Assembly: GCA_902596205.1 (NCBI GenBank)
Contig: CACJSY010000002.1
Coordinates: 1-64,000 of the forward strand
Origin: an uncultured Pelagibacteraceae bacterium
Lineage (GTDB): Bacteria > Pseudomonadota > Alphaproteobacteria > Pelagibacterales > Pelagibacteraceae
Direction of reading: 5' to 3'
Length of the DNA stretch: 64,000 bases
Part shown: positions 28,136 through 63,106 of the stretch, piece by piece
How positions within the stretch are numbered: the stretch's first letter is position 1
How the letters are laid out: every line of letters starts with the position of its first letter
Notes under the pieces: model-generated
The model's input: the letters and a program-made list of their open reading frames with translations, nothing else
Databases searched by the model: none
Told to the model about the DNA's origin: nothing
Position numbers and translations under genes: made by a program

Positions 28136-28494
28136 TGCCAGATAATTGGATTGTCGCTATTAGATTTTTAATAGAGGAAAGTCCGGGCTCCGTAAAGACA
28201 CAGTGCCAGTTAATGACTGGCGAAGGTGACTTCAGGGATAGTGCCACAGAAAATAAACCGCCTAATCAAGGCAAGGGTGAAACGGCGAGGTAAGAGCTCA
28301 CCGGTTTTTTGGTAACAAAAAACGCATGGCAAACCCCACTGGGAGCAAGGTTAAATAGAGAAGACAGTGTGTTTAAAGCACTAAAAACAGTCTTTAGTTA
28401 GTCTTCTGGGTTAACCGCTTGAGCTTAAATGTGAATTTAAGCCTAGAGAAATGACATCTTTAATGACAGAACCCGGCTTATAGATTATCTGGCA
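28136..28494 (+). ncRNA. rnpB: RNase P RNA (class A)
   Basis: Catalytic RNA that removes tRNA 5' leaders. Both ends pair perfectly over 11 bp (TGCCAGATAAT at 28136 with ATTATCTGGCA ending at 28494), forming P1. The universal core blocks GAGGAAAGTCCGGGCTCC near the 5' end and ACAGAACCCGGCTTATAGAT near the 3' end are present, together with CAGGGATAGTGCCACAGAAA and AAGGGTGAAACGGCGAGGTAAGAGC-type segments between them. Roughly 359 nt is typical. The track ORF 28102-28293 is only a shadow of this RNA. Confidence 0.97.
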
Positions 28495-28546
28495 ATTTCC
28501 TAATGTTTAATGTTCTACTTTTGTACTTTAAGCTGCCATAAACTTA

Positions 28547-28639: not shown

Positions 28640-29104
28640 ATGTTTTTGTCGAATTACGTAAACAAAATAGACAAGAAAGGACGTGTTTCTGTGCCGGCAT
28701 CCTTTAGGTCTCATTTAAATTCTATGGGATATAATGGATTTATTAGCTATCCATCATTTAATCATCCTGCTTTGGAAGCTTGTTCTCAAGATAGGATTGA
28801 AAAACTATCAAATACTATCGATACATTAAATCCTTTTGAAGAAAAAAGAGATTTTTTTGCTACATCTATTTTATCAGAAAGTGAAAACTTACAATTTGAT
28901 ACGGAAGGTAGAGTTTCAATCTCTCAAAAATTATTAAGTCATTCAAAAATCAAGGATAATATTCTATTTGTTGGTTTAGGAAAAACATTTCAAATCTGGG
29001 AACCAAAGAATTTCGAAAAATTTAAAATTTTTGCACGAAAAAAAGCTTTTCAAAATAGATCTAATTTAAAATGGGACAATAAACAGAAAGGGGAGTTGAA
29101 ATGA
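28640..29104 (+). CDS. mraZ: Transcriptional regulator MraZ
   Basis: A 154-aa DNA-binding protein with two AbrB-like SpoVT/MraZ swapped-hairpin repeats; it forms a ring and represses the dcw cluster. The first repeat is YVNKIDKKGRVSVPASFRSHL, the second is LQFDTEGRVSISQKLLSHSKI, both matching D-x-K-G-R-V-x-x-P. It is first in the cluster, with an operator upstream of it. Its stop overlaps the ftsZ start in ATGA. There is no good Shine-Dalgarno directly before this ATG; the strong AAGGAGGG lies about 40 nt upstream. Confidence 0.95.
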   Translation: MFLSNYVNKIDKKGRVSVPASFRSHLNSMGYNGFISYPSFNHPALEACSQDRIEKLSNTIDTLNPFEEKRDFFATSILSESENLQFDTEGRVSISQKLLSHSKIKDNILFVGLGKTFQIWEPKNFEKFKIFARKKAFQNRSNLKWDNKQKGELK

Positions 29105-30600
29105 GTATTAATGTTGGTGGTGGAGAACTTAAAGAATTAAAACCTAGAATATTAGTCATTGGAGTTGGCGGAGCTGGAGGAAATGCAATAAACGCTATGA
29201 TCGAAGCTGGGATGCAAGGTGTAGAGTTTGTTGCAGTCAATACTGATGCGCAAGATCTTAAAATGAGTAAAGCAGATGCTAAAATACAAATCGGAATGAA
29301 TTTAACTAAAGGACTAGGAGCAGGTGCTAAACACGATATTGGCCAAGCTGCTGCAGATGAGTCTATTAACGAAATTATTAACTATATTCAGGGAAGCAAT
29401 ATGGTCTTTATCGCATCTGGTATGGGTGGAGGGACTGGCACAGGAGCGTCTCACGTAATCGCAAAAGCTGCTCGAGAGATGAATATTTTAACTGTAGGAG
29501 TAACAACTTTGCCTTTCACTTATGAGGGTCCAAAACGAATGAGAAGAGCTATAGCTGGATTAGACCAATTAAAAAGACATTTAGATACTACAATTGTAGT
29601 ACCAAACCAAAACCTTTTTAAGATTGCTAACGAGGCAACAGGTTTCGAAGAGTCTTTCAGTTTATCAAATGATGTTCTCAAGCAAGGCGTTCAAAGTATT
29701 ACTGACTTAATGGTTCGACCAGGTATGATAAATTTAGATTTTGCAGATGTTGAAACAGTGATGAGCACAAGTGGAAAAGCAATGATGGGAACAGGAGAAG
29801 CTGATGGAGAAAATAGAGCAATGGCTGCTACGGAGCTGGCTTTAAATAATCCACTTATTGATGAATATACCTTACAAGGTGCTAAGGGTTTGCTTGTTAA
29901 TATAACAGGAGGAAGCGATATAAAGCTTTTTGAGGTAGACGCTGCTGTTAACAAAATTAGAGCTGAAGTTGATCCAGAAGCCGAGCTAATTTTTGGTGCG
30001 ATCAAAGATGAAGATATGAATGGCAAAATCAGAGTTTCAATTGTAGCTACTAGTTTAGAGGGCTCCAGCATTAGTCCAGAGCCAAGACCTTTGTTAAATG
30101 TTGTGAATGGTTCCAATATTAAAAATAACAATTTCTCTGAAAATTTATTCTCAAAGAATAATTTAGAAAAAAATGTTATAAATTCTATTGACGGAGCTAC
30201 AGCCTTAAAACTTGATGAAAGTTATGAATTTCAGGAGGAGCAAAAAATTGACTCAATTGGAGAATTTGAAAAAAATATAGAAAATAATAGCTCAGTTGAA
30301 TTAAAAACTGCCGAAGAACAAGACTTAACCTCTATTACTTCAGGAGTTTCAATTGAAAGCGCGTCCTATATTGAAAATAATAATTTAGATGAAGCAACGG
30401 ATAATTCACCAATATCTAAAAATTATAACGATGAAGATACACCACAATTATTTTCAGAAGAAAAAGATGATAAGTCAAATGAAGAAAACTTAGAAACTTT
30501 CGATACTGAAAGGGACAACTCAATTGAGTTATTTGATCAAGATACTAATGAAGAGGAAGATTTTGAAATTCCTGCTTTTTTGAGAAAACAAAAGTTTTAA
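29101..30600 (+). CDS. ftsZ: Cell division protein FtsZ, in an unusual dcw position
   Basis: Tubulin-like GTPase that forms the division ring. The 499-aa ORF has the N-terminal PRILVIGVGGAGGNAINAM, the GTP signature ASGMGGGTGTGAS, the catalytic T7 loop region INLDFADVETVM, and an acidic unstructured linker of about 150 residues. It ends in the conserved C-terminal peptide FEIPAFLRKQ, which binds FtsA and ZipA-like partners. In most alphaproteobacteria ftsZ follows ftsA; here it follows mraZ, and ftsA is followed directly by lpxC. This is the only ftsZ in the window. Confidence 0.97.
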   Translation: MSINVGGGELKELKPRILVIGVGGAGGNAINAMIEAGMQGVEFVAVNTDAQDLKMSKADAKIQIGMNLTKGLGAGAKHDIGQAAADESINEIINYIQGSNMVFIASGMGGGTGTGASHVIAKAAREMNILTVGVTTLPFTYEGPKRMRRAIAGLDQLKRHLDTTIVVPNQNLFKIANEATGFEESFSLSNDVLKQGVQSITDLMVRPGMINLDFADVETVMSTSGKAMMGTGEADGENRAMAATELALNNPLIDEYTLQGAKGLLVNITGGSDIKLFEVDAAVNKIRAEVDPEAELIFGAIKDEDMNGKIRVSIVATSLEGSSISPEPRPLLNVVNGSNIKNNNFSENLFSKNNLEKNVINSIDGATALKLDESYEFQEEQKIDSIGEFEKNIENNSSVELKTAEEQDLTSITSGVSIESASYIENNNLDEATDNSPISKNYNDEDTPQLFSEEKDDKSNEENLETFDTERDNSIELFDQDTNEEEDFEIPAFLRKQKF

Positions 30601-31960: not shown

Positions 31961-33656
31961 AAATTTTAATCAAAGAAGTTTCTATTTTGAGGATTACTTA
32001 GAAACAAATAAAAAAAATAAAATGTTCAAAAAATCGAATAATTTCCAAGACAGAATTTACTTGTTATTCTTTTTCTTTTTTTCTTTAGTATTAATTTTTT
32101 CAATAAAAATTACTTTCATTTCTTTAGACAAAAAAAACATTCGAAATTTAGAGAGACAAAATACAAAATTTTCTCTTTTAAGACGAGATATAGTTGACCG
32201 AAATGGAGTGATTATATCTAGAAATATCAATACTTTTCATGCAGCTATAGATCCAAAGTTATTAAAGGATAAAAAAAAATTTTTAATTAAATTAAGACTA
32301 CACTTTCCTGATTTGCCAATTGATAAAATTCAAAAAAAATTAGAAAAAAATAAATACTTCCGCATTAAAAAAAGAATCGATGAAGTCGAAAAGGAAAAGT
32401 TTTGGTCACTCGGTGAAAAGGCTATCAAATTTGAACCTTTCCAAGCTAGAATGTATACCCATGCAAATTTGTTTAGTCATATAATTGGTCAAGTCGATTA
32501 TGATAATTATGGTGTGTCAGGCGTTGAAAAATATTTTGATAGGGATTTAAAAAATAAAGATCTAATTGATAAACCTTTAAAATTAACTTTAGATAGCAAT
32601 ATTCAGTTTATAATCAATAAAGAATTAAATAATGCTATTGAAACTTTTGATGCAACGGGCGGCGGCGCATTATTAATAGATGTAAATAACGGCGATATAC
32701 TTTCTTTAATTTCATTACCAAATTTTGATATAAATCAAAGATCAACGATCAGTGATAAAAAATATCTTAATAAGATTACTAAAGGAGTATATGAACTTGG
32801 TTCAATATTTAAAACTTTCACTGTTGCTTTAGCACTAGAGCATAAATTAGTCGAAAAAGATACGATCATTCAAAACATCCCAAGAAAAATAAGGTGCTCT
32901 ATTCATGAAATAACAGATATGAAAGAACATCCAAAAAACTTATCAGTTGAGGAAATTTTAGTAAGATCATCAAATGTAGGTTCAGCAATATTAGCTAAAA
33001 AAATTGGAGTAGAAAATTTTAAAAATTTTTTGAAGAAAACAAAAATTACAAAGAATCCTGTTATCGAATTACAAGAAGTTGGTAGCCCCCACCAGATAAA
33101 ATGGAATAAGTGTAAATTAGAAACTATATCTTTTGGTCATGGTATTACAACTACACCTCTGCAAGTCACGGCATTATATGCAGCGATGAGCAATGGGGGA
33201 AAATTAATTGCTCCTAGTTTAATTAAAGATAGAAAAATTGAAAAGCCTAAAAATATTATATCAAGCAATACAAGCTATGAGTTGAGAAATATTTTAAGAA
33301 AAGTTGTTAGTAGCAAATATGGTACAGCAAGCTTAGCTGATAAAGATGGATACTATGTTGGGGGGAAAACAGGTACTGCAGAGGGATATGGGAATAAAAA
33401 AAATAGAATTAATAATTTTATTTCAATTTTTCCTTCGAATGAACCAAACTACGCTTTGTTTGTGATGTTAGAGAATCCAAAAATTAACAAAGATTTGATC
33501 TATAATTATAGAGGCACAAAAACAAAAGCACCTTACAATACCTCTGGTTGGAACGCTGTTTATGTGGCAGGCAAAATAATAGAGAAAATTGGACCAATTT
33601 TAGCCATAAATAACAAAGAGTTTATACAGCAACATGTTGTTGAAAAATTTAATTAA
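31935..33656 (+). CDS. ftsI: Peptidoglycan transpeptidase FtsI (PBP3)
   Basis: Septal cross-linking enzyme of 573 aa with a single N-terminal membrane anchor. The class B PBP dimerisation domain contains LLRRDIVDRNGVIISRN. The transpeptidase motifs are S-x-x-K in ELGSIFKTF, S-x-N in VRSSNVGSA, and K-T-G-T in GGKTGTAEGYG. The anchor is preceded by a Lys/Asn-rich cytoplasmic tail. It overlaps ftsL by 26 nt and murEF by 23 nt. Confidence 0.97.
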   Translation: MKKKQKKNKNFNQRSFYFEDYLETNKKNKMFKKSNNFQDRIYLLFFFFFSLVLIFSIKITFISLDKKNIRNLERQNTKFSLLRRDIVDRNGVIISRNINTFHAAIDPKLLKDKKKFLIKLRLHFPDLPIDKIQKKLEKNKYFRIKKRIDEVEKEKFWSLGEKAIKFEPFQARMYTHANLFSHIIGQVDYDNYGVSGVEKYFDRDLKNKDLIDKPLKLTLDSNIQFIINKELNNAIETFDATGGGALLIDVNNGDILSLISLPNFDINQRSTISDKKYLNKITKGVYELGSIFKTFTVALALEHKLVEKDTIIQNIPRKIRCSIHEITDMKEHPKNLSVEEILVRSSNVGSAILAKKIGVENFKNFLKKTKITKNPVIELQEVGSPHQIKWNKCKLETISFGHGITTTPLQVTALYAAMSNGGKLIAPSLIKDRKIEKPKNIISSNTSYELRNILRKVVSSKYGTASLADKDGYYVGGKTGTAEGYGNKKNRINNFISIFPSNEPNYALFVMLENPKINKDLIYNYRGTKTKAPYNTSGWNAVYVAGKIIEKIGPILAINNKEFIQQHVVEKFN

Positions 33657-36393
33657 CAATATTTCAAAAAATAAAAAAAATATTTTCATTTCTGGGCTTT
33701 CAATAAACAGTAATGAAATAAAAAAAAATTATATTTTCTTTGCAATTAAAGGAAATAAATTAAATGGAGAAAAATTTATTAAAGATGCAATTAAAAAAGG
33801 CGCTGTTGTAATAGTTTGTTCTCCAGGTTACAAACAAAAAAATAAGAAAATCACTTTTATTAGAACTAGGAAAATCAGACATCTTTTAAGTGAGGTAGCC
33901 TCTAAATTTTACAAATTAAAACCTAAAAATATTTTTGCAGTTACTGGTACGAATGGAAAAACATCTGTTGCAGATTTATTTTATCAAATTTTAAGATTGA
34001 GAAATATACCAGTTGCAACTATTGGGACCTTAGGAATAAAATATAACAATAAAATAATAAAAACCAATCTTACTTCGCCTGATACTATTACCCTTCACAA
34101 AAATCTAGATTTCTTAAAAAGAAAAAAAATTGATAATGTTATTATAGAAGCCTCTAGTCATGGATTATCTCAAAAAAGATTACATCATATAAAATTAAAA
34201 GCAGGAATTTTTACAAATTTTAGCCAGGATCACTTGGATTACCACAAGACCATGAAGTCTTATTTAAATGCAAAACTTTTACTATTCAGAGAAATTTTAA
34301 AAGAGAAAACCTCAATTATTTTAGATAGAGACATTGATCAATATTCACTGATTAAGAAAATTGCGAAAAATAAAAAATTAAAAATTTTCGAAATAAGCAA
34401 AGAATTAAAAAAAATAGCAGATTTATATTTAAAAAATTTAATAGATTATAGGATTAAGAATTTAGCCATGGCAATTATAGCTTCTAAGATATGTGGTTTA
34501 AAAGATAAATATATTTATCCTGAAATTAAAAAGTTGAAAGACGTTAATGGAAGACTTGAACTGATAAAAGACTATCCCAACAAAGTTAAAGTATTTATTG
34601 ACTACGCGCATACTCCAGATGCTTTACTTAAAGCGATTACATCTCTTAAAAATAATTACGGAAATAATATCTCTTTAGTTTTTGGATGTGGAGGTGATAG
34701 AGATAAAAAAAAAAGACCTTTAATGGCAAAAATTGCAAATGAACATTGTAACAAAATTTATGTTACAGATGACAATCCAAGAAAAGAAAGTCCAACAAAA
34801 ATAAGAAAGCACCTTTTAAAATATATTTCTAAAAAGAAAGTATTTGATATTGGAAATAGGGAATTAGCTATTAAAAAATCTATTCAAAATGCAGAACCAA
34901 ATGAAACTATACTGATCGCAGGAAAAGGTCATGAGGAAAAACAAATTTATAAAAATAAAATAATAAATATTTCAGATAAAAAAATTGTGAAAAATATAAA
35001 AGTAAAAACAAAAATTTCTAAAAAAAGAGATAACTTTTTACACAATAGATTAATATTAAAGAAAATATTGGGAAAAACAAAGCTTGTAAATTTTAATGGA
35101 CTTTCAATCGACACAAGATCAATAAAAAAAGATAACTTATTTATAGCAATTAAAGGAAAGAAAAATGATGGAAATAAGTTTATAAAAATTGCATTAAAAA
35201 AAAAAGCTGGCTGTGTTATTTCATCTTTAAACCATCATCATAATAAAAAAAAAATAATTAAAGTTAAAGATACAATTGCATTTTTAAATCAGTTTGCATA
35301 CCTCAAACGTGAAAAAACGTCAGCAAAAATAATTGCTATTACTGGTAGTGCAGGAAAAACATCTTTAAAAAATATGATTAGTGATTTGTTAAAAAATTTT
35401 GACCAAACTTATTCATCACCAAAATCTTTCAATAATCATTACGGAGTACCTATTAGTTTATCAAATTTAAATACAAAAGATAAATTTGGTGTCTTTGAAG
35501 TTGGAATGAGTAGGTCGGGCGAAATAAGAAATCTAACAAAATTAATTAATCCTCATATAGGTGTAATTACAAATATTGGTGAAGCTCATTTAGAAAACTT
35601 TAAAAATATTAAAGGAATAGCAGAAGCTAAATCAGAAATAATCCAAAACATTAAACCTGGAGGAACCATTATACTTAATAGGGATGATAAATTTTTTAAT
35701 TTTTTGTTTAAAAAAGCTAAATCGCATAATTTAAAGATTTGTACTTTTGGCAGGCATTATAAATCAGATGTTAGGATTATAAAAATTATTAATAAAATAA
35801 ATTCTTCAAAGCTTTTGGTAAATTGTAATAAACAAATAATAAATTTAGAAATTAAGGATTTGAACATACATAATGTTCTGGCCTCAATTACAATTTTAAA
35901 AGAATTAAAAATTGATTTATCAAAGATAAGCCTAAAATTTAAAAATTTAAGCTCACCAGAGGGAAGAGGGAAAAAGTATTCTATCTCAAGGTATAGGAAG
36001 AAATTTAATTTAATAGATGAAAGTTATAATGCTAATCCATTATCTGTGAAAAATGCCATAAAAAAGCTTAGTTCGATAAAAAAAGTAAATTTTAAAAAAT
36101 ACTTAATACTTGGTGATATGCTTGAATTAGGTTCAAATTCAAAAATGTATCATGAAAAGTTATCTAAAGTTATTAACAATTCCGATATTGATAAAGTATT
36201 CGTTAAGGGAAAAAAAACAATTTTCACCTATAAACATATAAACAAAGAAAAAAGAGGAAATATTTTACAAAGCAACGAAGATATAGATTTAAGTTTGAGA
36301 AGGATGATATCAAATAATGATTATCTAATGATTAAAGGATCTAATGCTACAGGGCTTTATGATTTCAGTAAAAAAATGATAAAAGGAATATAA
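33634..36393 (+). CDS. murEF: MurE-MurF fusion ligase
   Basis: One 919-aa ORF holding two consecutive peptidoglycan ligases. Residues about 1-460 are MurE: P-loop FAVTGTNGKTSVADL near 103-115, and the motif DDNPRKE, whose DNPR indicates meso-diaminopimelate as substrate. Residues about 475-919 are MurF, beginning NFNGLSIDTRSIKKDNLF, with a second P-loop AITGSAGKTSLKNM near 569, and IDESYNANPLSVKNAI. It would add meso-DAP and then D-Ala-D-Ala to UDP-MurNAc peptides. The junction is a short basic linker with no stop or frameshift. Confidence 0.95.
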   Translation: MLLKNLINNISKNKKNIFISGLSINSNEIKKNYIFFAIKGNKLNGEKFIKDAIKKGAVVIVCSPGYKQKNKKITFIRTRKIRHLLSEVASKFYKLKPKNIFAVTGTNGKTSVADLFYQILRLRNIPVATIGTLGIKYNNKIIKTNLTSPDTITLHKNLDFLKRKKIDNVIIEASSHGLSQKRLHHIKLKAGIFTNFSQDHLDYHKTMKSYLNAKLLLFREILKEKTSIILDRDIDQYSLIKKIAKNKKLKIFEISKELKKIADLYLKNLIDYRIKNLAMAIIASKICGLKDKYIYPEIKKLKDVNGRLELIKDYPNKVKVFIDYAHTPDALLKAITSLKNNYGNNISLVFGCGGDRDKKKRPLMAKIANEHCNKIYVTDDNPRKESPTKIRKHLLKYISKKKVFDIGNRELAIKKSIQNAEPNETILIAGKGHEEKQIYKNKIINISDKKIVKNIKVKTKISKKRDNFLHNRLILKKILGKTKLVNFNGLSIDTRSIKKDNLFIAIKGKKNDGNKFIKIALKKKAGCVISSLNHHHNKKKIIKVKDTIAFLNQFAYLKREKTSAKIIAITGSAGKTSLKNMISDLLKNFDQTYSSPKSFNNHYGVPISLSNLNTKDKFGVFEVGMSRSGEIRNLTKLINPHIGVITNIGEAHLENFKNIKGIAEAKSEIIQNIKPGGTIILNRDDKFFNFLFKKAKSHNLKICTFGRHYKSDVRIIKIINKINSSKLLVNCNKQIINLEIKDLNIHNVLASITILKELKIDLSKISLKFKNLSSPEGRGKKYSISRYRKKFNLIDESYNANPLSVKNAIKKLSSIKKVNFKKYLILGDMLELGSNSKMYHEKLSKVINNSDIDKVFVKGKKTIFTYKHINKEKRGNILQSNEDIDLSLRRMISNNDYLMIKGSNATGLYDFSKKMIKGI

Positions 36394-43238: not shown

Positions 43239-44169
43239 TGTAAAATTTAAAAATGTTCTGGTTGTTTTAGGTGGAACGTCAGGAGAAAGAACTATTAGTC
43301 TGGAAAGTGGCAAGGCATGTATTAAAGCTTTAAAAAGAAAAGGTTATAAGGTAACAACTTTTGATCCTAAGAGAAAGAATTTAAATTTAATAAGTAAAAA
43401 AAAAATTGATGTAATTTTTAATGCGCTCCATGGAAAAAATGGAGAGGACGGTGTAGCTCAAAGTTATTTTGAATATTTAAGAATTCCTTACACACATTCA
43501 GGAGTGATTAGCTCTTATAATGCTATGAATAAAGAAATTTCAAAGAAAATATTTATTCGGAATAAAATAAAAACACCAAAATTTCTTTTAATTAAAAAAT
43601 CTAATTATAAGAAAAATAAGATTACCAAAATTATGATTAAGAACAAAATTAATTTTCCAATTGTTTTAAAACCAGTCAATGAAGGATCTAGTTTAGGAGT
43701 TGTGATTTGCAAAAATAAAGCAAAACTCTTTAAATCAGCGAAAGGTTTGTTTAAAAAATACCAGGAGTTAATCGTCGAGGAGTATATCGGAGGACAAGAA
43801 GTTCAAGTAGCAGTAATAAATGGAAATCCAATAGGTGCGATAGAATTAATACCAAAAAGGTTATTTTATGATTATAAAGCTAAATATACAAAAAAGGCTA
43901 AGACAAAACATGTGATGCCTGCGAGATTAACAAGAGACAAATACCAGGAAGTTTTAAAAATTGCAAAAAAGACTCACAGAATTCTTAGTTGCAGAGGTGT
44001 TACAAGATCAGATTTTAAATTTTATAATAATAATTTTTATTTATTAGAACTAAATACACAACCAGGAATGACAAGTTTATCTTTAGTTCCTGAAATCGCC
44101 AATTACAGAGGTTTAAGTTTTGATAACCTAGTAGAAAAAATTTTATTAGACGCCAGCACTAATAGATGA
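43231..44169 (+). CDS. ddl: D-alanine-D-alanine ligase
   Basis: ATP-grasp ligase that makes D-Ala-D-Ala for MurF. It contains VLGGTSGERTISLESGKA, FNALHGKNGEDGVAQSYFE, PVNEGSSLGVVI, and the C-terminal TRSDFKFYNNNFYLLELNTQPGMT split across strands. The track start is a TTG at 43207. I prefer the in-frame GTG at 43231, which overlaps the murB stop by 8 nt and sits about 13 nt after a GGAG. That start is a judgement. Confidence 0.95.
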   Translation: MTDVKFKNVLVVLGGTSGERTISLESGKACIKALKRKGYKVTTFDPKRKNLNLISKKKIDVIFNALHGKNGEDGVAQSYFEYLRIPYTHSGVISSYNAMNKEISKKIFIRNKIKTPKFLLIKKSNYKKNKITKIMIKNKINFPIVLKPVNEGSSLGVVICKNKAKLFKSAKGLFKKYQELIVEEYIGGQEVQVAVINGNPIGAIELIPKRLFYDYKAKYTKKAKTKHVMPARLTRDKYQEVLKIAKKTHRILSCRGVTRSDFKFYNNNFYLLELNTQPGMTSLSLVPEIANYRGLSFDNLVEKILLDASTNR

Positions 44170-44822
44170 AAAAAAGAACATTTATTGCTGTAGCATTATT
44201 GATACTGTTAACCACAATTACTTCACAACAAAAAATAGTAATTTCAAAGTTTAATTTAACTACAATTGAAATCAAAAATAATTCTTTATTAAAAAAAGAA
44301 GATATAAAAAAATTGCTATTACCAATTTATGATAAAAATCTTATATTTTTGAAAAGTGAGGATATCGAGAAAGCTTTAATGCAAAACAGTTTCGTTGAAA
44401 GTTTTATAATTAAAAAAATATATCCAAATACTTTAAAAATTGAAATTTTTGAGAAAAAGCCTATTGCTATTCTATTAAATAATAAGAATAAATTCTATAT
44501 AAGTGAAAAGATCGACTTAATTGAATTTACAAATTTAAAAAATTATCAAAATTTACCCTACGTTTTTGGCAATAAAGAAGAATTTAAAATTTTTTACGAT
44601 GATTTGAATATGATAAATTTTCCAACGGATAAAATAAAGAAATATACTTTATACGAGACAAATAGATGGGATATAGAAACTATTGATAAAAAAATAATAA
44701 AACTACCGAATAAAGATTACATAGAAAGCCTTCAAAGTTATTTAAATCTAAAGAATAAAAGTGAATTTAAAAAATATGATGTATTTGATTTTAGGGTAAA
44801 CAATCAACTTATTTTAAAATAA
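44166..44822 (+). CDS. ftsQ: Cell division protein FtsQ
   Basis: Bitopic divisome protein of 218 aa: a very short cytoplasmic tail, one transmembrane helix (FIAVALLILLTTITS), then a POTRA domain (FNLTTIEIKNNSLLKKEDIK ... YPNTLKIEIFEKKPIAIL) and a beta domain (WDIETIDKKIIKLPNKD). It is shorter than the roughly 280-aa FtsQ of other alphaproteobacteria, lacking the long N-terminal cytoplasmic part. Overlaps ddl by 4 nt. Confidence 0.9.
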   Translation: MKKRTFIAVALLILLTTITSQQKIVISKFNLTTIEIKNNSLLKKEDIKKLLLPIYDKNLIFLKSEDIEKALMQNSFVESFIIKKIYPNTLKIEIFEKKPIAILLNNKNKFYISEKIDLIEFTNLKNYQNLPYVFGNKEEFKIFYDDLNMINFPTDKIKKYTLYETNRWDIETIDKKIIKLPNKDYIESLQSYLNLKNKSEFKKYDVFDFRVNNQLILK

Positions 44823-44823
44823 A

Positions 44824-46017
44824 ATGAAAAAATTCCATTTTAACCTATATTTAGAAATTAATGATTCAAAATATATTTTTTTTGTCGAAAAAAGTGATGG
44901 AGAAAATTATTTTGAAATTGATTATAAATTAGAAGTTCCTTTAGAGGGTATTATTAATAATAGAGTAGCTAACTTTGAAAAATCTTTTAATATAATTAAA
45001 GAAAATATTTATCTTCTTGAAGAAAAATTTAAATGTACTTTTAAAGAATTAATATTGATATTAGAAAATTTAAGTCCTACCTTTTTAAATTTGTCTGGGT
45101 ATAAAAAACTAAATGGCTCACAAATCTCAAAAGAAAATATAATTTATATTTTAAATACGTGTAAATCCATTGTGAATGAGATCGAATCTAACAAAAAAAT
45201 TTTACACATTTTTAATTCAAATTATAATCTTGATAAGCAAAAAGTTGAAAATTTACCTATCGGATTGTTTGGAGATTTTTATGCACATGAATTATCCTTT
45301 ATCCTTATTAATAAGAATGATTATAAAAATTTAAAGAATCTTTTTGCTAATTGTAATTTAAAAATAAAAAAAATTTTGGTAAAGAATTTTGTTAAGGGTG
45401 CAAATATAAGTCAAAATTACAAAATAGAAACTTTCTTTTATTTAAGAATAAGTAAATCTAATTCAAATATTTTTTACTTTGAAAACGACTCTCTTAAGCT
45501 TGAACAAAATTTTTCCTTTGGAACAGACATTATCATTAAAGATATTTCAAAAATAACTTCACTTAAACGGGATACTGTTATAAAAATTTTAAATGAAATT
45601 GAATTTAAGCAGGATATATCAGAAGACGACCTAATTGAAGAGAAGTTTTTTAAAGAAGATAATTATATAAAAATAAAAAAAAAATTGATCTACGAAATAG
45701 CTCTAGCAAGAATTAATGAAATTTTGGAAATTATAGTTTTTAAGAATATTAACTTTAAGAACAATAAGAAATATCTTAATAACCTTTTCTTTGAAGTCAA
45801 CTTTCAATTAGATTTCAAATATTTTGAGGAAATTTTCAAAAAAGTTATTATTGACACTAAAAATTATAAATTAATTTTGTTAAATAACCTCTCTGATAAA
45901 AGCATAGTAAATTCTGCAAATAAAATTGTCCATTTTGGTTGGAAAAAAGAAGCCATACCTGTTTCTCAATTCAGAAAGTCATTAATTGCAAGGTTTTTTG
46001 ATAAAATATTTGGTTAA
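44824..46017 (+). CDS. ftsA: Divergent FtsA lacking canonical ATP-binding motifs
   Basis: Position after ftsQ and several segments identify a divergent FtsA of 397 aa. The SHS2/1C domain is recognisable (NLSPTFLNLSGYKKLNGSQI, KKILHIFNSNYNLD, ENLPIGLFGDFYAHELSFI, about residues 82-162). The C-terminus SQFRKSLIARFFDKIFG looks like the amphipathic membrane-targeting helix. But the phosphate-1 motif usually near the N-terminus is replaced by FNLYLEINDSKYIFF, and the DIGGGTTD-like phosphate-2 motif is replaced by YLRISKSNSNIFYFEND. Nucleotide binding is therefore doubtful. It presumably still tethers FtsZ, whose C-terminal peptide is intact. Confidence 0.85.
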   Translation: MKKFHFNLYLEINDSKYIFFVEKSDGENYFEIDYKLEVPLEGIINNRVANFEKSFNIIKENIYLLEEKFKCTFKELILILENLSPTFLNLSGYKKLNGSQISKENIIYILNTCKSIVNEIESNKKILHIFNSNYNLDKQKVENLPIGLFGDFYAHELSFILINKNDYKNLKNLFANCNLKIKKILVKNFVKGANISQNYKIETFFYLRISKSNSNIFYFENDSLKLEQNFSFGTDIIIKDISKITSLKRDTVIKILNEIEFKQDISEDDLIEEKFFKEDNYIKIKKKLIYEIALARINEILEIIVFKNINFKNNKKYLNNLFFEVNFQLDFKYFEEIFKKVIIDTKNYKLILLNNLSDKSIVNSANKIVHFGWKKEAIPVSQFRKSLIARFFDKIFG

Positions 46018-46075: not shown

Positions 46076-47011
46076 ATGCTCCCAATGTTAAATATATATC
46101 AAAAAACTATATCTGAAAGCACAACCTTTAAAGGCGTTGGCTTACATTCTGGAAAAAATTCAACAGTTAAAATAACTCCAGCTAAAGAAAATAACGGTAT
46201 AATTTTTAAAAGAACAGATTTAAATAAAAATAATCTTATAAGTGCAAATTTTACAAACGTATCTTCTACTAAATTATGCACAACTTTAAAAAATGAATAT
46301 GGAGTTAAAGTATCAACAGTTGAGCACTTGCTTGCCGCAATTTATATTGCTGGTATTGATAATGCTATAATTGAAATTGACAATGAAGAAGTACCGATAA
46401 TGGACGGTTCAGCTAAAGATTTTTTAAATACTTTAAAAGATGTAGAACTTATTAATCAGTTTAAAAAAAGAAAATATTTGCAAGTTCTAAAAAAAATAGA
46501 ACTTAAAGATGGGAAAAGATTAATTTCTATTGAACCAAACGAATCCTCTTTAGAAGTAAATTTTCAATTGGATTATAAAAACAAGATTATTGGAAAACAA
46601 CAGAATACCATAAATTTCCAACAAGATAATTTAGATGAGATTATTAATTCTAGAACATTTTGTTTATTCAAAGACATAGAAAAAATAAAAAAACTTGGAC
46701 TTGCAAAGGGTGGATCCTTAGATAATGCAGTTGTAGTTGATGATAATAAAATTCTAAATAAAGAAGGGTTAAGAAACGAAAAGGAATTTGTTAATCATAA
46801 AATTTTAGATCTAGCTGGTGATTTTTTACTTTCTGGACACAGAATACTTGGAAAAGTATTTTGTTATCATGGTGGTCATGAATTAACGAATCTTTTTTTA
46901 CATAAAATTTTTGATGAAAAATCATCTTTCAAAATTTTTGAGTTAGAAGATGTTATTTATTCAAAAGATATCAAATACAAACGTTCACAAAAATTAGCTG
47001 TAAACGCTTAA
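46076..47011 (+). CDS. lpxC: UDP-3-O-acyl-N-acetylglucosamine deacetylase
   Basis: Zinc deacetylase that commits UDP-GlcNAc to lipid A, so the cell makes LPS. The 311-aa protein contains FKGVGLHSGKNS, VSTVEHLLAAIYIAGIDNAI (first zinc His), EVPIMDGSAKDF, VNHKILDLAGDF and CYHGGHELTN. The ATG at 46085 is an alternative start that would drop three residues. It follows ftsA by 58 nt, the spot where ftsZ usually lies. Confidence 0.96.
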   Translation: MLPMLNIYQKTISESTTFKGVGLHSGKNSTVKITPAKENNGIIFKRTDLNKNNLISANFTNVSSTKLCTTLKNEYGVKVSTVEHLLAAIYIAGIDNAIIEIDNEEVPIMDGSAKDFLNTLKDVELINQFKKRKYLQVLKKIELKDGKRLISIEPNESSLEVNFQLDYKNKIIGKQQNTINFQQDNLDEIINSRTFCLFKDIEKIKKLGLAKGGSLDNAVVVDDNKILNKEGLRNEKEFVNHKILDLAGDFLLSGHRILGKVFCYHGGHELTNLFLHKIFDEKSSFKIFELEDVIYSKDIKYKRSQKLAVNA

Positions 47012-62755: not shown

Positions 62756-62799
62756 TTTCGTTATATTCGTTAGCAACTACGCTCTATTCAGATTCAGGA

Positions 62800-62824
62800 A
62801 GGGGCGTTCTGTTGCCAGGTGCCC
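62800..62824 (+). repeat. ssrA-3'-end repeat, copy R7 (resident copy)
   Basis: AGGGGCGTTCTGTTGCCAGG then TGCCC. On the minus strand it directly follows the tmRNA coding piece (GTAACGGGGTCC) as GGGGCACCTGGCAACAG...CGCCCC. This folds into a GGGGC/GCCCC stem with a CTG-GCAA-CAG inner hairpin capped by a GNRA-type loop. I interpret it as the 3'-terminal hairpin of the tmRNA gene itself and as the source sequence for R1-R6. Confidence 0.82.
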
Positions 62825-63058
62825 CGGACCCCGTTACTTAATTAACAAAGTTAATTAAGCTGCAAGTGCAAATTTTTGATTTGCATTTATAAATTAGCCC
62901 GTTACGTCGGAACCATCTCGTACGAAAGAATAGCCTTTAGACATCCGTCGATCCTGATTCACCCCCATAAGTTGTAAATGGTGGAGGTGGTGGGTACTGC
63001 CCCCACGTCCGTAATGTTTATTACGAAATTCGTTTATCGTCATAGTTGGAAAACCAAC
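62800..63058 (-). ncRNA. ssrA: Two-piece (permuted) tmRNA
   Basis: Rescues stalled ribosomes. On the minus strand the acceptor piece comes first and ends in GTACCCACCACCTCCACCA (CCA at 62979). A 12-nt excised loop follows, then the coding piece begins GGGGGTGAATCAGGATCGAC at 62966. The acceptor stem pairs GGGGGTG with CACCTCC and contains a G3-U wobble, the alanine identity element. The tag frame reads GCA AAT CAA AAA TTT GCA CTT GCA GCT TAA, giving ANQKFALAA with the usual ALAA degron end. The stop is followed by a CTTAATTAA/TTAATTAAG stem. The permuted order is the alphaproteobacterial form. Piece ends are approximate. Confidence 0.93.
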
Positions 63059-63064
63059 ACTATT

Positions 63065-63092
63065 AATATAAAACTCTTATAGAGAGATTCAA
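63065..63092 (-). promoter_or_regulatory. Candidate ssrA promoter
   Basis: On the minus strand TTGAAT (63087-63092) and TATATT (63065-63070) are separated by 16 nt, placing the start near 63058, where the acceptor piece should begin. Confidence 0.5.
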
Positions 63093-63106
63093 TAAATTAT
63101 TTCAAA

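Follow-up and report, generated by a model that had tools for sequence, protein, structure and literature searches.

An FtsA of SAR11 bacteria that lacks the nucleotide-binding motifs and may tether FtsZ to the membrane without ATP

The FtsA encoded in a 64,000-nucleotide stretch of DNA from an uncultured Pelagibacteraceae bacterium (contig CACJSY010000002.1; hereafter the window) has lost its phosphate-1, phosphate-2 and adenosine motifs. FtsA is generally viewed as a nucleotide-switched actin, the ATP state of which controls membrane binding, filament form and the activation of division. Judged from its sequence, the window protein is fairly probably a pseudo-actin that would serve as an ATP-independent membrane tether for FtsZ.

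Identification of the window FtsA

The open reading frame at 44824-46017, the exact span given by the first-pass annotation, is the FtsA of this genome by descent, as gene order, the SHS2 domain and the predicted FtsA fold indicate. The gene and its neighbours are as follows.

44824..46017, + strand: ftsA, 397 aa, an FtsA apparently without an ATP pocket (SHS2_FTSA match, TIGR01174 match below cut-off, AlphaFold2 model, Foldseek)
44166..44822, + strand: ftsQ, directly upstream of ftsA (POTRA_1, 4.7e-13)
46076..47011, + strand: lpxC, directly downstream of ftsA (LpxC, 1.1e-96)

The resulting order, ddl-ftsQ-ftsA-lpxC, is that of E. coli (ddlB-ftsQ-ftsA-ftsZ-lpxC) except for ftsZ. A Pfam search returned SHS2_FTSA (PF02491) at 7.2e-7 and 29.9 bits, above the cut-off of 25.4, so the SHS2 domain has been retained, as had been proposed. 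The model for the FtsA ATPase domain (PF14450) was not found in the window protein at E<=10, compared with 9.4e-27 for an FtsA from a sister genus. TIGR01174, the NCBIfam ftsA model, gave 91.8 bits, about half its cut-off of 175.85. The top sequence matches were solved FtsA structures, with weak E-values, and a profile built from relatives matched E. coli FtsA at 6.7e-68. By descent we class the protein as an FtsA, one in which the ATPase features are missing. A second, intact FtsA was also sought in the window genome, and the remaining TIGR01174 matches were MreB and DnaK; this assembly is 83% complete, and more complete relatives likewise yielded none.

Loss of the nucleotide-binding motifs

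Alignment with E. coli FtsA located the segments in which the motifs would lie, together with one charged residue near the Mg site.

44851..44871, + strand: LEINDSK at residues 10-16, where E. coli has the phosphate-1 turn LEIGTAK; acid retained, Gly and Thr gone (alignment)
45439..45465, + strand: YLRISKSNS at residues 206-214, in place of the phosphate-2 segment VVDIGGGTM of E. coli (alignment)
45781..45816, + strand: residues 320-331, where the adenosine motif VLTGGAAQ of E. coli is gone (alignment; identity 0.26 in the genus)
45382..45384, + strand: K187, aligned with E. coli A188 close to the Mg site (alignment; A188 position from PMC10213515)

In phosphate-1, E. coli G16 and T17 correspond to N13 and D14. 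The phosphate-2 sequence VDIGGGT is replaced by LRISKSN, with D210 aligned to R208, G212 to S210, G213 and G214 to K211 and S212, and T215 to N213. The proposal that both phosphate segments had been replaced by unrelated residues thus held for the glycines and the phosphate-2 Asp but not for the phosphate-1 acid, which is kept as E11. The adenosine motif, on which the first-pass annotation was silent, is lost as well (G336 to N326, G337 to F327). E11 is the sole remaining motif residue; because E. coli FtsA also has a Glu there (E14), its retention is neutral as evidence. It is kept in 49 of 56 proteins of the genus, and all 13 of the sister genus have Glu. The K187 site is a Lys in 51 of 56 and 13 of 13, respectively, and a Ser, Ala, Thr, Gly or Cys in most other proteins.

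Two trivial causes were considered and rejected. Base-composition drift is not the cause of the loss, since the motifs DLGT and D[IL]GGGT are intact in the MreB and DnaK of this genome. Misalignment is contradicted by sister genera that align with all motifs in place and by an alignment-free scan with relaxed motif patterns, which found none in 52 of 55 proteins of the genus. The adenosine pattern of that scan misses the canonical TGGAS, and the alignment-based count is preferred.

Distribution of the loss among relatives

FtsA sequences were collected from 31 genomes (the window's own and relatives), 148 of the family, 289 of the class and eight named contigs, with residue-by-residue inspection of a subset. 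The genus of the window, here g1, includes strain HIMB058 (Candidatus Pelagibacter ubique), and g5 is its sister genus. The full motif set was absent from every FtsA of g1 (56 distinct proteins) and of g5 (13 proteins). All three motif glycines were missing in 49 of the 60 g1 rows, some of which are duplicates; the phosphate-1 and adenosine glycines were each present in 0/60, and the other 11 rows had a Gly at phosphate-2 alone. The g5 proteins were nearly as bare (phosphate-1 Gly in 1/13, phosphate-2 Gly in 5/13). Nearly all proteins of g7 to g11 and g13 had intact motifs with small lapses, those of g6 and g12 had the glycines with Glu replacing the phosphate-1 Asp, and all 29 canonical alphaproteobacterial proteins kept the motifs. 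The SAR11 alignment that had been suggested as a check therefore bore out the loss: it is a trait fixed in the genus and its sister genus rather than a local error. In an rpoB tree g1 and g5 are sisters with a support of 100, and g7 and g9, which keep the motifs, fall outside; a single loss on the shared g1 and g5 stem is thus the simplest account.

Erosion was also seen elsewhere. Proteins of a sister family (f2, L001-L012) have lost the phosphate-1 and phosphate-2 glycines (DIR, DIQKNKT; first Gly in 1/11) and keep the adenosine motif (TGYGAK), apparently through a separate, partial event. In family f18 (L116 and L118), a strongly reduced lineage with genomes of about 0.62 Mb, the phosphate and adenosine motifs of FtsA are eroded, which looks like an event apart from the g1 and g5 loss. 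The FtsZ tail is altered in one of the two f18 members (L186, NNLPDFLKDQDDQ).

Predicted structure of the window FtsA

Structure prediction, another of the suggested checks, gave a confident FtsA-like fold. The AlphaFold2 model of the window protein had a pLDDT of 89.1 and a pTM of 0.85, and that of a motif-bearing control FtsA had values of 87.8 and 0.86. In Foldseek searches the top solved matches of the window model were all FtsA (E 1e-17 to 1e-22), and the first matches of the control were likewise FtsA structures. The TM-scores by query against FtsA structures were 0.52-0.65 for the window model and 0.64-0.78 for the control. This lower fit is consistent with a changed domain arrangement in the predicted model, and greater sequence divergence could also explain it.

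These models bear on the possibility that the protein, though diverged, still works as an ATP-binding FtsA, with a pocket that holds nucleotide through other residues such as E11 and K187. The predicted fold is compatible with such a pocket, as are the conservation of E11 and the near fixation of a charged residue at position 187. We nevertheless regard this explanation as quite unlikely, given that the three glycine motifs and the phosphate-2 Asp and Thr are gone and that the window model fits FtsA structures worse than the motif-bearing sister does, although divergence may account for part of that difference. The former motif segments also vary freely, with K, E, N or Q at a phosphate-2 position and the low identity of the adenosine segment noted above, which is not how a rebuilt pocket would behave if selection maintained it. 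On the sequence evidence the protein may still bind nucleotide weakly or in an altered way, E11 and the fold being retained.

Selection and conserved regions

The ftsA genes of g1 and g5 are under purifying selection. Within these genera dN/dS was 0.05-0.22, similar to motif-bearing sisters; the reading frames are intact at about 394-403 aa in nearly all g1 genomes, and 41 residues are at least 95% conserved in g1. That ftsA is non-functional and decaying through genome reduction is thus very improbable. High sequence divergence and a stop-interrupted locus in another genome (G082, below) would fit decay, but the pseudogene reading is rejected by the dN/dS values and contradicted for g1 by the selection test, the intact reading frames and the conserved residues. 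Conservation is concentrated in three regions.

45073..45312, + strand: 1C/SHS2 domain, roughly residues 84-163, more conserved in g1 than any other region (Pfam; mean pairwise identity 0.62)
45679..45741, + strand: putative FtsZ-binding helix of 2B (residues 286-306), carrying R296 and E299, which align with E. coli R300 and E303 (alignment, model)
45982..46011, + strand: amphipathic helix at the C terminus, residues 387-396 in the stretch SLIARFFDKIF (model, conservation)

After 1C, the identities within g1 were 0.57 for the 2B helix and 0.53 for the membrane helix, and the adenosine segment had the lowest value. R296 and E299 were kept in every aligned sequence covering the site, in all groups; their E. 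coli counterparts are presumably the FtsZ-binding residues of FtsA. The C-terminal amphipathic helix was said to remain, and the model and its conservation across the genus agree. Its hydrophobic moment ranks second of 387 11-mers, but when this tail was shuffled 5000 times an equal moment arose in 516 cases; amphipathicity alone is weak evidence for the predicted membrane helix, and conservation across the genus is better evidence. Just N-terminal to this helix lies GWKKEA[IV]P (window 45937-45960, ftsA residues 372-379), a motif strongly conserved in the clade, to which nothing in E. coli FtsA clearly corresponds.

FtsZ and other membrane anchors

The FtsZ of the window was also located.

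29101..30600, + strand: ftsZ, between mraZ and mraW (TIGR00065, 375 bits)
30550..30597, + strand: FtsZ C-terminal peptide EEEDFEIPAFLRKQKF (comparison with the E. coli peptide)

The tail of the window FtsZ, FEIPAFLRKQKF, matches E. coli LDIPAFLRKQAD; the E. coli peptide sequence and the FtsZ site in the 2B subdomain of FtsA have been described (PMC9098913). FtsZ tails follow FEIPAFLR[KR]QK[FY], a peptide of the E. coli type. The first-pass annotation placed an FtsZ with its FtsA-binding peptide in the same cluster. The two genes do share one dcw cluster and the peptide is there, but ftsZ lies about 14 kb upstream rather than adjoining ftsA. A similar spacing was found across the sampled Pelagibacterales genomes, unlike the usual ftsA-ftsZ pair. 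Searches that included positive controls found neither a SepF domain (0/27 genomes) nor a ZipA C-terminal domain (0/27 genomes), and a search for FtsN/SPOR gave matches in 4 of 17 genomes.

A shortened FtsA in genus g7

In many genomes of g7, which is probably Pelagibacter sensu stricto, the standard FtsA model detected no FtsA. A clade profile, followed by inspection of reading frames between ftsQ and lpxC, revealed an intact mini-FtsA of 222-236 aa in 32 g7 genomes (8 plus 24 more), flanked by ftsQ and lpxC in all 32. Examples are listed below.

L262:1489-2187: mini-FtsA
L256:1501-2208: mini-FtsA
L259:1369-2067, - strand: mini-FtsA
L290-L313: mini-FtsA

In the alignment these proteins run from 1A and 1C straight into the last helix and the amphipathic helix, domain 2 being deleted as a whole. 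Their dN/dS was 0.14-0.34, and the FtsZ tails were kept as [LF]EIPAFLRRQK[NS] in the mini-FtsA genomes tested. Since the interdomain ATP cleft cannot form when domain 2 is missing, the mini-FtsA strengthens the case that the family can do without an FtsA ATP cycle. The window FtsA and the mini-FtsA share the locus, 1A, 1C, the amphipathic helix and the apparent lack of a usable ATP cleft, and differ in that the mini-FtsA lacks domain 2. The FtsZ-binding subdomain is absent from the mini-FtsA, so what selection maintains in FtsA there may be independent of a contact between 2B and FtsZ; this suggests that FtsA in the family may also do something without it.

The window FtsA itself might then no longer be mainly an FtsZ tether, its core being 1C and the membrane helix that link the division machinery to the membrane, with domain 2 eroding toward deletion. 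The 32 genomes with just 1A, 1C and the amphipathic helix under selection at the same locus favour this explanation, as does the position of 1C as the most conserved region in g1. We consider it unlikely, though deserving some weight, because the g1 2B helix is conserved, R296 and E299 are kept and the FtsZ C-terminal peptide is retained.

Further observations concern individual genomes. One (G050) encodes a full-length FtsA with most motifs present, and another (G056) a mini-FtsA. In the complete genome G082 the ftsA locus (L265, G082:C1:193772-194455) is interrupted by stops, through real loss or sequencing error, leaving pieces of 75 and 81 aa counted from the first Met.

A model for division without an FtsA ATP switch

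The ATP-independent tether is plausible and fits all of the sequence evidence, including the conserved 2B helix, the purifying selection and the searches in which SepF and ZipA went undetected. We infer from sequence that the window FtsA does not bind ATP and that it binds FtsZ and the membrane. In the proposed model, the three nucleotide-binding motifs would have disappeared in the ancestor of g1 and g5, with selection preserving the overall fold, 1C/SHS2, the 2B helix and the membrane helix. The amphipathic helix would rest on the membrane, 2B would grip FtsZ through its C-terminal peptide, and 1C may touch downstream division proteins or further copies of FtsA. Lacking an ATP switch, such a system would depend on the FtsZ GTP cycle and on the weakness of the helix for membrane release, filament turnover and FtsZ dynamics. 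As a speculation, K187 and E11 might fill the empty Mg/phosphate site, standing in for nucleotide; in E. coli FtsA, E14, S84, A188 and D210 are among those close to the Mg site (A188: PMC10213515).

Work on other FtsA proteins gives a mixed background. FtsA(E14R) and FtsA(S84L) remain lipid-bound without ATP (PMC10213515), and a non-hydrolysable ATP analogue left membrane binding and self-interaction of FtsA unchanged (PMC9098913). The changes that inactivate E. coli FtsA map mostly to the ATP site, and membrane binding and polymerisation of Streptococcus pneumoniae FtsA are ATP-dependent (PMC5832921), so in other bacteria motif loss would be expected to do harm. These SAR11 bacteria seem able to do without the ATP step of FtsA.

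With FtsA of E. coli, Vibrio maritimus, Thermotoga maritima and Staphylococcus aureus the window protein has in common its descent, ddl-ftsQ-ftsA, SHS2/1C, the predicted two-domain fold, the 2B R/E pair and the amphipathic helix; it differs in the three motifs, the undetected PF14450 and the TIGR01174 score. SepF and ZipA are ATP-free FtsZ anchors to which we propose a likeness in working, although their folds are unrelated. PilM, an FtsA-like protein of type IV pili, gave the next-best structural and profile matches; it differs in that solved PilM structures bind ATP or ADP and in having neither an FtsZ peptide site nor the FtsA gene context.

On a wider scale, we put at about even the chances that SAR11 bacteria abandoned an actin-type ATP cycle in FtsA in more than one way: the pocket was lost in g1 and g5 and, in part, in the sister family, and domain 2 was deleted in many Pelagibacter strains. 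Division would then proceed without a nucleotide-switched FtsA, and the indispensable core would be 1C and the membrane helix. These very small and very abundant ocean bacteria offer a natural experiment on minimal FtsA function, for which sister species that keep the motifs are ready-made controls. We found no earlier report in the literature searched, which left out most subscription journals, so that a prior description is possible.

Additional features of the window

A single 919-aa reading frame at 33634-36393 resembles a MurE-MurF fusion. The window also carries a permuted (two-piece) alphaproteobacterial tmRNA at 62797-63096 on the minus strand and an RNase P RNA at 28138-28496 on the plus strand.
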